Positions 9,965 to 11,872 of a stretch of 11,872 nt of DNA are shown here, piece by piece; position 1 is the stretch's first letter; every line of letters begins with the position of its first letter. Source of the stretch: Treponema sp. (lineage in GTDB: Bacteria > Spirochaetota > Spirochaetia > Treponematales > Breznakiellaceae); contig WQZT01000025.1 in NCBI GenBank assembly GCA_009780595.1, forward strand, positions 1 through 11,872, read 5' to 3'. The notes beneath the pieces were generated by a model. That model searched no databases, was not told the DNA's origin, and worked only from the letters and a program-made list of their open reading frames with translations. The position numbers and the translations under genes are program-made.

Positions 9965-10201
9965 CTATCTAATCCAAACTATTTTTATAGGTTCACTTTT
10001 TTGAACTATTTCCAGAGCTATTTGTTCATCGTATTTTTTGTAGATGTAATAATACACTTCAAGAACATTTACTTTATGCATGATAATTTTAATTTCTTCG
10101 TTTGCGGCTTTTTGCAGTAAATCTTTTACAACATTTGCGCCATTTTCATTAGCCAGAAGAGCTATTAAGGAACAGACATCAAAAACAAACGTATTGTTCA
10201 T
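9965..10201 (-). pseudogene. VapC-like PIN toxin with most of its second half missing
   Basis: The 78-residue product starts with FVFDVCSLIALLANE, where D8 is the first metal-binding acid of PIN ribonucleases. It continues to NVLEVYYYIYKK, where E48 is the second. PIN toxins are usually about 130 residues and need one or two further aspartates in the second half. Those are absent. The last residues (EPIKIVWIR and stop) resemble the normal end of some VapC proteins as I remember them, so an internal in-frame deletion of about 50-60 codons after ALEIV is more likely than a cut-off end. The ATG (10201-10199) overlaps the antitoxin stop as ATGA, giving translational coupling. The sequence is clearly more AT-rich than its neighbours, which suggests transfer. 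Without the missing acids the toxin is probably inactive. A small unrelated DNA-binding or accessory protein cannot be fully excluded. Confidence 0.7.
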
Positions 10202-10422
10202 GCTTCAAGTTCTTTGTCGCGTTGTTTTTCTTGCAAGAAATCGTCTATTGATATTTTCCCATCGGAAAACATTCCTATCAGATGATCAAACCGTGGTTTT
10301 TCTTCAGAAAACGGCGTTAATGTTATAGTCCCATTTTCCTCATAAACCTTCACTTTTTTGGTGTGGATTTTTGAGAAAACGCTTTCCGGCAATGTTTGAA
10401 CATCCAAAACCATTTCTGCCAC
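10198..10422 (-). CDS. VapB-like antitoxin
   Basis: This is a 74-residue protein. The start is GTG (10422-10420), preceded by AGAGGG (10435-10430) at a spacing of 7. An ATG three codons in (10413-10411) is an alternative. The N-terminal part (LPESVFSKIHTKKVKVYEENGTITLTPF) looks like a short beta-rich DNA-binding domain of the VapB kind. The C-terminal part (GKISIDDFLQEKQRDKELEA) is a charged helix of the sort that masks a PIN toxin. The TGA stop overlaps the toxin ATG. Together the two genes form a small minus-strand operon with its own promoter. The family assignment rests on pattern and on the PIN-like neighbour. If the toxin is dead, this gene may survive as a solitary repressor or an anti-toxin against related modules. 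Confidence 0.75.
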   Translation of the reverse strand: MAEMVLDVQTLPESVFSKIHTKKVKVYEENGTITLTPFSEEKPRFDHLIGMFSDGKISIDDFLQEKQRDKELEA

Positions 10423-10441
10423 AATGTTACCCTCTGGTTTT

Positions 10442-10470
10442 ACTATAAATTAAAACCCCAGCCTTGACAA
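10442..10470 (-). promoter_or_regulatory. promoter of the toxin-antitoxin unit
   Basis: On the minus strand TTGTCA (10470-10465), a spacer of 17, then TATAGT (10447-10442) lies about 20 bp before the GTG start. The -35 ends exactly where the 18-bp direct repeat begins, so the inserted segment carries its complete promoter. Confidence 0.55.
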
Positions 10471-10488
10471 GCACGTGGCTGGCGGGAT
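10471..10488. repeat. 18-bp direct repeat, right copy
   Basis: This is a perfect copy of 9911-9928. Joined to the ATPase gene in place of the left copy, it would keep the same last amino acids and end in TGA instead of TAA. An ATG would overlap that stop (ATGA, 10487-10490), opening a 13-codon frame that ends at 10528. Confidence 0.9.
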
Positions 10489-10524
10489 GATAGCGCTGAT
10501 CGTAAAAAAATACAAAAACTCTTA

Positions 10525-10553
10525 TTGACACACTAATTTCCCCGTGATAAAAT
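10525..10553 (+). promoter_or_regulatory. near-consensus sigma70 promoter
   Basis: TTGACA (10525-10530), a spacer of 17, then TAAAAT (10548-10553) is one of the strongest promoter matches in the window. Transcription would begin near 10560, upstream of the short leader ORF and in the direction of the lipoprotein gene. Confidence 0.6.
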
Positions 10554-10610
10554 AGTATAAACATCATAATTCATGGTGTATTTATGAAAAGAATTAAAAA
10601 GGAGGTTTCT

Positions 10611-10703
10611 GTGGTACTCTGTCCATGCTATGGTGAGCTCCCATGGAGCTTAGCTAGCTATAGCTTGAATTCACCCCCCCCCCCGAAAATTTCGCTGGTA
10701 TAA
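10611..10703 (+). CDS. possible short leader ORF through the poly-C tract
   Basis: GGAGG (10601-10605) with a spacing of 5 precedes a GTG (10611) that opens a 30-codon frame ending in TAA at 10701-10703. An in-frame ATG at 10584 would make it 39 codons. The peptide contains CPCYGELPW, then a run of four prolines encoded by the C tract. It resembles no family I know. Its ribosome-binding site and the promoter at 10525 are strong. Its sequence overlaps palindromes and a -10 element, so it may be regulatory or not translated at all. Its frame beyond the C run depends on tract length. Confidence 0.3.
   Translation: MVLCPCYGELPWSLASYSLNSPPPPKISLV
10634..10652. promoter_or_regulatory. AGCT-rich palindromic hairpin
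   Basis: TGAGCTCC (10634-10641) pairs with GGAGCTTA (10645-10652) around the loop CAT, giving 8 pairs including one G-U. Five AGCT tetramers occur within 30 bp (10636-10665), and TAGCTAGCTA (10651-10660) is itself a palindrome. This could be an operator array or an RNA structure ahead of the lipoprotein gene. Confidence 0.5.
10674..10684. repeat. homopolymeric tract of 11 C
   Basis: Eleven consecutive C form the longest homopolymer in the window. The tract lies between a TTGAAT (10665-10670) and an extended -10 (10696-10704), and also inside the short leader ORF. Poly-G/C tracts in treponemes are known to vary in length and to change expression of outer-membrane genes. Confidence 0.9.
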
Positions 10704-10704
10704 T
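10696..10704 (+). promoter_or_regulatory. extended -10 promoter of the repeat lipoprotein
   Basis: TGGTATAAT is a perfect extended -10 (TGn plus TATAAT at 10699-10704). The position for a -35 at a 17-bp spacing (10676-10681) falls entirely within the C run. The nearest -35-like hexamer, TTGAAT (10665-10670), is 28 bp away, so tract length would alter the promoter geometry. The start would be near 10711, about 100 nt before the ATG. The leader has a weak stem CTGTGC/GCACAG (10758-10763 and 10776-10781). Confidence 0.5.
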
Positions 10705-10814
10705 AACAATCTAAGCTCAACAGTTCTCTTTCCATCCAAAAACTATTCTCAACTCTGCTGTGCCGCCGCAGGTGCGCACAGGCAGCGCTTTCTTTATTCT
10801 CAGGAGGTTTTAGT

Positions 10815-11872
10815 ATGAAACACATTTCAAGTTTGCGGCAGGTTTTATTGAGCCTTGCCGTTCTTACATTCGTCGGATTTGCAGGGTGCAAGAGCCCCGC
10901 CGATCCTCCGCCGGATTCCTACACCACCACGATAAACGCAGGCGGGCAGGATTGCGCGGCAATACCCAAGGATGCGCTTGCAGGCGATATGGTAACATTG
11001 AACGCAGGCAGCCGCGCGGGCTACAAGTTCACAGGCTGGACGGTTACCAAGCCCGCGGGGATGAAAATCACCGGAAACCAGTTTGCGATGCCGGTCAATG
11101 GCATTGAGGTAACGGCGGAATGGGAGGCGATTCTTTACGACATCACGGTGAACAGCGAAGGAAGTTCCTCGGCAGATAAAAACCAGGCAAGCATAGGGGA
11201 GATTGTAACGCTGAGCCGAGGAACGCGCCCCGACTATGGCTTTACCAGGTGGGAGGTAGTTAAGCCCGCTGGCTTAACGATTACCGACGACGTCTTTACT
11301 ATGCCTGCGGCAGAGGTGGAAGTAACGGCAATCTGGAAGGCGGGCGAGTTCAGCACCAGAATAACAGACGGCGGCGACGGGGCTTCGGCAAATCCGCAGC
11401 CTGCGGAGCTTCACCAGACGGTAACGTTGAACCCGGGAAATAAGCCGGGGCACACCTTTGCTGGGTGGACAGTTGACTCGCCATCTTCCGGCGTTACGAT
11501 CAATAACAATACGTTTACAATGCCGAACTCGGATGTCGAGGTAACGGCAAGCTGGACAAAGATTGTCTATACCATCGAGGTGCAACAGGGTGGGGGAACA
11601 GGCTCTTCGGCGAGTCCGAAGTCGACGACCATCGGAGAAACGGTAATGTTGAGCCACGGAAATCGACCGGGATACAACCCCGATGGCTGGACAGTCATCG
11701 CGCCTTCAGGATTTAGCTTTAATGGCGACAGCTTTGCCATGCCGGCGGACAATGTCGAGGTAACGGCGAAGTGGAAGGCAATTTCCTACGACATCACCGT
11801 CAACCAGAACAGCGGAAGCGGCTCAGAGGCAAAGCCGAACCCGGCAACTGTTGGGCAAACGGTAACGTTAAG
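10815..11872 (+). CDS. lipoprotein with InlB-B-type repeats, 3' end outside window
   Basis: The frame is open from the ATG at 10815 to the window end (352 residues visible). AGGAGG (10802-10807) lies 7 nt before the start. A signal peptide ends VGFAGC with C25 as the likely lipidated cysteine, a relaxed spirochaete-type lipobox. A short proline-rich linker (PADPPPD) follows. Residues 38 to the end are tandem repeats of about 70-74 residues. Four are complete (about 38-107, 109-178, 181-250 and 253-322) and a fifth begins at about 327. Each has a T-V-T-L strand, a GY-F-x-GW-like core with tryptophans at 75, 146, 218 and 292, a F-x-MP turn, and a closing EVTA-x-W. This is the pattern of InlB B-repeat (Flg_new-type) domains of cell-surface proteins. 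It is probably anchored in the outer membrane with the repeats as a stalk. Its ligand or C-terminal domain lies outside the window. It is preceded by an unusual regulatory region with a poly-C tract. Confidence 0.9.
   Translation, partial: MKHISSLRQVLLSLAVLTFVGFAGCKSPADPPPDSYTTTINAGGQDCAAIPKDALAGDMVTLNAGSRAGYKFTGWTVTKPAGMKITGNQFAMPVNGIEVTAEWEAILYDITVNSEGSSSADKNQASIGEIVTLSRGTRPDYGFTRWEVVKPAGLTITDDVFTMPAAEVEVTAIWKAGEFSTRITDGGDGASANPQPAELHQTVTLNPGNKPGHTFAGWTVDSPSSGVTINNNTFTMPNSDVEVTASWTKIVYTIEVQQGGGTGSSASPKSTTIGETVMLSHGNRPGYNPDGWTVIAPSGFSFNGDSFAMPADNVEVTAKWKAISYDITVNQNSGSGSEAKPNPATVGQTVTL

Follow-up and report, generated by a model that had tools for sequence, protein, structure and literature searches.

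A poly-C tract within a probable translated leader as a candidate phase switch for a repeat lipoprotein gene of a Treponema genome

Described homopolymer switches and the tract of the window

Poly-G or poly-C tracts lie upstream of surface-protein genes in Treponema pallidum (tprL and tp0126), Bordetella (fim) and Neisseria meningitidis (opc), and T. pallidum is a spirochaete like the organism considered here. As these systems are described in the relevant parts of the sources, the tract belongs to the promoter: poly-C lies over the -35 of opc, poly-G lies in the promoters of tprL and tp0126 (PMC7864442), and the fim promoters carry poly-C (PMC1891110). Other described tracts act in the mRNA. 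The pilus G-tracts of Bifidobacterium breve, in the account given by the sections of PMC9187656 that treat them, sit in a translated 5' ORF and their length decides whether translation continues into surface products, with slippage fusing two ORFs into one protein. The mRNA leader of Helicobacter pylori tlpB holds a variable G-repeat that pairs with the small RNA RepG, and in the part of that paper concerned with a second gene the authors argue against direct translational coupling (PMC8295292). Stop/start overlaps with reinitiation are known from GeneTack clusters, although coupling and phase variation form separate classes in the portion of that study dealing with them (PMC3711429), and the relevant part of a Campylobacter Ribo-seq study deals with ordinary phase-variable ORFs (PMC11955535).

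We analysed a window of 11,872 nucleotides, the whole of one contig (C25) of a Treponema sp. assembly of 1.73 Mb in 277 contigs that is 64% complete. It shares with the promoter systems a homopolymer upstream of a surface-protein gene, but its C tract lies in a leader ORF, 120 nt downstream of the end of the best -10 match. As in B. breve the tract appears to be in a translated 5' ORF, but the predicted ON frame stops over the next start and would produce no fusion. Coupling and phase variation, separate in the GeneTack classification, are apparently combined in the window. None of the systems above, in the parts cited, joins a phase-variable leader to an overlapping stop/start, and searches of an open-licence literature collection brought up no paper on a leader ORF that varies in phase and is coupled to the gene after it.

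The C11 tract, a candidate slipped-strand switch within the leader ORF, occupies 10674-10684 on the forward strand (letters read back), and the window has just one other C/G run of at least 6, of length 6. The base composition of the window predicts 0.008 C/G runs of at least 11 per window and about 1.1 per genome, and the source genome has eight runs of at least 9, so the length of the tract carries modest weight by itself. Metagenome assemblies do not give homopolymer lengths reliably. An expectation near one such run per genome would suit an ordinary spacer that carries a chance or mutational homopolymer without regulatory role, but the sister loci, the open-frame statistics and the start-codon leaders described below all speak against this, and we consider it improbable.

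The initial annotation had assigned the tract to a promoter, and the letters bear out its landmarks. The C11 tract is directly upstream of a perfect extended -10-like site, TGGTATAAT (10696-10704, forward strand), a possible second promoter that starts 11 nt past the tract end and contains TATAAT at 10699-10704; an all-C hexamer lies at 17-nt spacing upstream of TATAAT, and a TTGAAT across the tract (10665-10670) is 28 nt from it. TGGTATAAT also overlaps the TAA of the frame predicted below to be OFF. These landmarks, and the opc, T. pallidum and fim precedents as far as the cited parts describe them, favour a transcriptional switch in which the tract replaces the -35 of the extended -10 promoter and its length tunes transcription. 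However, TATAAT follows 5-25 nt past only 1 of 97 tracts with enough sequence, that of the window itself, and is absent after the tracts of both sister loci (C7 and C82). Upstream promoters are common instead. With 200 nt of upstream sequence for each, we surveyed 72 leader loci plus 24 other tracts. A promoter match of at least 10/12 was present in 42 of the leader loci (shuffles keeping base counts only gave a mean of 2.5 and a maximum of 6), and its -10 ended 69-159 nt upstream of the tract, at a median of 103.5 nt; 9 of the 24 other tracts also had such a match. Both results argue against a general role of the tract in the promoter. The window itself has a stronger promoter match upstream, and a transcriptional switch would leave its leader ribosome site and the open frame reaching the next start unexplained, making this reading unlikely. 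Tract-driven phase variation of a surface lipoprotein thus remains the best general idea, while the tract as a -35 element is not favoured given the rarity of TATAAT, the better upstream promoter and the position of the tract in a leader.

The leader frame and the lipoprotein start

The best of four promoter matches in 10400-10900 (promoter scan) is TTGACA-N17-TAAAAT at 10525-10553 on the forward strand, with TG before the -10 and 11/12 agreement with the consensus. Downstream lie a ribosome-binding site, AAGGAGG (10599-10605, forward strand, letters checked), and a leader ORF (10611-10703, forward strand, frame reading) that starts with GTG at 10611, runs for 21 codons into the C tract and ends in TAA at 11 C; an ATG at 10584 shares its frame. 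Both this promoter and the leader ORF had been overlooked in the initial annotation. Judged by the ribosome site, the GTG and the 21 open codons, the tract appears to lie inside an ORF, as in intragenic phase variation. The spacer between the tract and the lipoprotein start (10685-10818, forward strand) has one frame open throughout: the post-tract frames stop at +27, +16 and +131 nt, and the last ends in a TGA (10816-10818) that overlaps the lipoprotein ATG as ATGA (10815-10818), the stop/start overlap typical of translational coupling. Because 11 C puts the leader into the frame ending in TAA at 10701-10703, the assembled allele is predicted to be OFF, and 10 or 13 C would be predicted to enter the long open frame.

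We think it fairly probable that tract length sets the frame of the leader and that the frame reaching ATGA turns the lipoprotein on, either by reinitiation with hairpin opening or by relief of polarity. The mRNA would start from the promoter at 10525-10553, placing the C tract in a short translated leader ORF where one-base slipped-strand changes would move ribosomes to another post-tract frame. At 10 or 13 C, ribosomes would translate the whole spacer, open the hairpin predicted at the ribosome site of the lipoprotein and terminate at the TGA overlapping the ATG, and the lipoprotein would then be made by coupling, or since translated mRNA escapes early termination. At 11 or 12 C, they would stop 16 or 27 nt past the tract and the lipoprotein would be poorly made. 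Tract, leader, promoter match, frames, overlap and recurrence are all present at the level of sequence. From them we infer an unstable tract length, switching and coupling. In line with this reading, related leaders within single genomes have unequal tracts, namely L216/L217 (C19/C16), L239/L240 (C14/C15) and L205-L208 (C18/C16/C15/C14).

As assembled, the window leader has four prolines encoded by the tract (own translation), which would also suit control at the RNA level: a proline run would stall ribosomes, or a G-rich small RNA or a protein would bind the C tract of the transcript, with graded output. Such control does not predict one open frame leading to ATGA. The window contains no Rfam family at gathering score, and a simple consensus scan of 10400-10900 returned no terminator-like site of the kind that a leader-peptide attenuator would have. 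We therefore give RNA-level control a low probability and retain the frame switch as the preferred reading.

The gene downstream (10815-11872, forward strand) encodes a repeat lipoprotein with InlB-type B-repeats and runs off the contig. Its match to PF18998 (E 1.3e-33) and, by eye, its lipoprotein-type N-terminus agree with the surface-type repeat lipoprotein proposed earlier. The last bases of the window (11750-11872) and the start of contig C182 share 123 identical bases, and because of this link the gene probably continues on C182. No match to the lipoprotein was found at E 1e-10 in any of three relatives (G001-G003), making an orthologous tract comparison impossible.

A hairpin, GCTTTCT/AGGAGGT (10787-10808, forward strand), is predicted over the lipoprotein ribosome-binding site in both the MFE and centroid folds, and the predicted unpaired probability of the site is 0.02 in the window fold, with an unremarkable total fold energy for the region (z 0.35 and z -0.41). 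The lipoprotein has a good ribosome site of its own, which counts against the frame switch. Across 10 coupled loci, main-gene ribosome sites had a mean unpaired probability of 0.256 vs 0.438 in 115 control genes (one-sided P 0.010), and the other three of the four window sizes tried in all gave P 0.012, 0.049 and 0.048. These predicted values are no more than suggestive of hidden ribosome sites at coupled loci.

Paralogues of the lipoprotein in the source genome show other repeats in comparable places. At L257, L258 and L263 (contigs C210, C205 and C55), an upstream ATG, which by eye closely follows a -10-like box, opens a frame that runs into (GCACGCAA)x3, and frame 0 past the repeat stays open for 183-213 nt and stops short of the main start; a repeat unit of 8 bases would shift the frame as poly-C does. 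At L268 (contig C123), TATAAT-N7-ATG precedes a frame open into (CACACTG)x4, with frame 0 beyond it open for 189 nt. Elsewhere in the source genome, an intragenic G12 tract (L014, 2549-2560, contig C143) lies within an 800-aa ORF that is repeat-lipoprotein-like by eye, and 18 C lie at the start of contig C1 (L009, 71-88), where on the opposite strand an ATG frame behind TGGAGG reaches the G run after 14 codons (by eye). The window also encodes a small PIN-domain protein (9965-10422, reverse strand; E 6e-4, below the Pfam cut-off) that overlaps a 74-aa ORF in a toxin-antitoxin-like arrangement.

Sister loci and open frames

A short sequence in the window leader, TAGCTAGCT (10651-10659, forward strand), is common to three sister leaders in the same frame (Leu-Ala-Ser; frame by own count). 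It has three forward matches and one reverse match in the source genome, of which the reverse match arises from a palindromic overlap with the forward one in the window, and poly-C occurs within 30 nt after all three forward sites. The combination of TAGCTAGCT and then poly-C was absent from the 96 other relatives searched, and in the named genome collection the pattern matched 32 stretches that are apparently unrelated by title. Sharing of TAGCTAGCT and poly-C at three loci indicates that the tract context is not due to chance.

The two sister loci, C7 (C10) and C82 (C11), repeat the layout of the window with a promoter, AAAGGAGG, a leader start, TAGCTAGCT and the tract, after which one frame is open over 66-67 nt and the next gene begins with ATGA. 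TAGCTAGCT lies 45 nt from the ribosome site in the window and 36 nt from it in each sister, a whole-codon difference. At C7, two frames rather than one reach the next start (+66 and +70), and the product is a lipoprotein by its start (by eye); the C82 contig ends 84 nt past the tract. Given the chosen start codons, all three alleles are predicted to be OFF as assembled.

We kept 125 distinct tracts of at least 9 C for frame analysis. Among these loci, we chose 55 from other genera (L201-L255) by eye among the pattern matches, mostly with a visible start codon, and the retrieved stretches of G001-G003 covered all 55 places listed for them. The open-frame test excluded tracts with less than 300 nt downstream, which dropped C7 and C82, as well as the tracts of C1, C51, C80, C143 and C170. 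Of the tracts with at least 300 nt downstream, 17 share the frame of an ORF of 150 aa or longer; a second set has 61 entries, and L253 appears in both. L176 was scored as in frame despite an additional open ATGA frame.

The 17 in-frame tracts have the layout of ordinary intragenic phase variation and lend some support to a classical version for the window, in which a longer gene has been wrongly split and carries the tract close to its 5' end. In the window, however, translation past the tract would not run on into the lipoprotein in any frame: the frame of the lipoprotein itself meets a stop at +16, the sole frame crossing the spacer ends in TGA over the ATG, and the lipoprotein has its own ribosome site and, by eye, a signal-type N-terminus. 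We regard this classical arrangement as very improbable here and keep to a leader that hands ribosomes on at ATGA.

The 61 other entries, with main genes called by a single rule on Shine-Dalgarno sequence and length, divided into 36 for which the rule gave no main gene, 9 whose main gene lacks ATGA at its start and 16 with ATGA. At these ATGA loci the frame was open from the tract to the TGA in 10 of 16, over 98-301 nt, and closed in the other 6, one of which (L166, minus strand) was scored closed despite a TAATG overlap. The expected number of open frames was 1.27 from 47 control genes when upstream ORFs of at least 300 nt were excluded (P 9e-9), 3.07 from 54 control genes when long upstream ORFs were included (P 1.4e-4) and 0.75 from shuffled spacers (P 8e-12), numbers that speak against a chance homopolymer.

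By rule, 6 of the 10 open ATGA loci have a leader start, and by our own arithmetic L230 is predicted to be ON and the other five OFF as assembled. L251 has a leader start at wider spacing and the sequence of L161 begins 21 nt before the tract; at L162 and L166 (plus strand) the upstream sequence is present and the rule found no leader start. We scanned nine main-gene products against Pfam (L241 omitted), four of which scored above the cut-off: Sortilin/DUF6242 (L162), RCC1 and Big_2 (L176), an acyltransferase (L216) and a TIM-barrel protein (L230). Matches were weak for L166, L207 and L228 and none were found for L161 and L251, and several main-gene products begin lipoprotein-like by eye.

Poly-C leaders across the family

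Among the best 120 of 299 listed relatives of a neighbouring window protein are Treponema sp. MAGs and Leadbettera azotonutricia, a member of the Breznakiellaceae, which is presumably the family of the 195 genomes we surveyed. The pattern AGGAGG-N3-10-ATG-N24-54-non-C-C9 occurred at 64 places in 40 of the 195 genomes and in 20 of 56 genera, whereas the reversed pattern had 5 places, each in a different genome; the window locus falls outside this count since its leader starts with GTG. The first ATG frame was open to the tract at 60 of the 64 places, where the naive expectation is 34, and the other two frames were open at 12 and 22. These counts, which lump short leaders with the 5' ends of long genes, indicate that translated frames with poly-C among their first 10-20 codons are genuine and widely distributed across the family, contrary to a chance homopolymer.

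Patterns that omit the start codon behaved differently, and their result is what a chance homopolymer would give. AGGAGG-N45-75-poly-C occurred in 75 of 195 genomes with C9 and in 62 of 195 with a non-C before C9, the latter no commoner than its reversed control (62 vs about 57 of 195, control hand-counted). In an order-level draw of 116 genomes, a looser pattern with C10 was found in 7 of 30 family and 4 of 86 other genomes, and the hand-counted reversed control in 7 of 30 and 5 of 86 (11/116 for the pattern vs 12/116 for the control). Because the reversed control is about as frequent, the start-codon-free counts were not used, and the spread of these leaders rests on the AGGAGG-ATG pattern.

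Tentatively, though we find it quite possible, the loci represent a modular switch of many treponemes of the family. It would consist of a promoter, a leader ORF indifferent to its peptide and a poly-C tract, placed before varied genes for surface proteins and other products, with one frame handing ribosomes to the next start. The leaders would be paralogous within a genome and differ between genera, and 8-mers and 7-mers may replace poly-C in sister loci. If true, treponemes of a large, mostly uncultured family of the termite-gut type would switch surface lipoproteins through a reusable leader rather than gene by gene or promoter by promoter, and a leader peptide free to vary would allow the switch to be placed before any gene. 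ON and OFF would then be readable as tract length modulo 3 in any long-read metagenome, so phase variation in uncultured gut spirochaetes would be directly testable.

A second leader family fits such freedom of the peptide. G001, a relative from the same genus whose genome is 97% complete, has 10 copies, which consist of TTGACG-N17-TATACT, 7-8 nt, an ATG and 26-27 open codons into the tract, without a ribosome site (spacing by eye), and the ATG frame is open to the tract in all 10. Nine aligned copies (L173 was omitted from the alignment, as it has one extra codon) contained 0 stops in the leader frame vs 17 and 11 in the other two. The differences among these peptides had no codon-position bias (243/266/249) and thus gave no sign of peptide selection. 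A stop-free frame with evenly distributed differences fits a leader that must stay open while its peptide is free to vary.

Many of these tracts are close to contig ends: 27 of 40 in G001, 10 of 14 in G002 and 1 of 1 in G003 are at most 150 nt from an end, where 2% or less would be expected. We considered contig breaks as evidence of length variation and dropped them, since Illumina reads fail after homopolymers (compare PMC9187656, in its part on this point). In G001, 13 contig ends retain the sequence upstream of the tract and 10 the sequence downstream of it, a balance that argues against a one-sided poly-G read artefact. Where G001 contigs end in 25-51 C, these tract lengths are probably not the true ones.

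Some further observations concern the variety of these tracts. One of the 4 genomes outside the family that match the looser C10 pattern (G240, of another family of the order) contains L284, which combines a promoter, a ribosome site, a leader and C15 with an open frame of 208 nt; this frame ends a few bases into an ATG-started frame preceded by AAAAGGAG. Across 12 chosen genomes, the number of C/G runs of at least 10 ranged from 0 (G024) to 179 (G111), both in the same family. A conserved sequence beginning AYGTAACTCCTTA follows eight of the G001 poly-C tracts (L173, L177 and L188-L193) and forms a second repeated part of the leader region.
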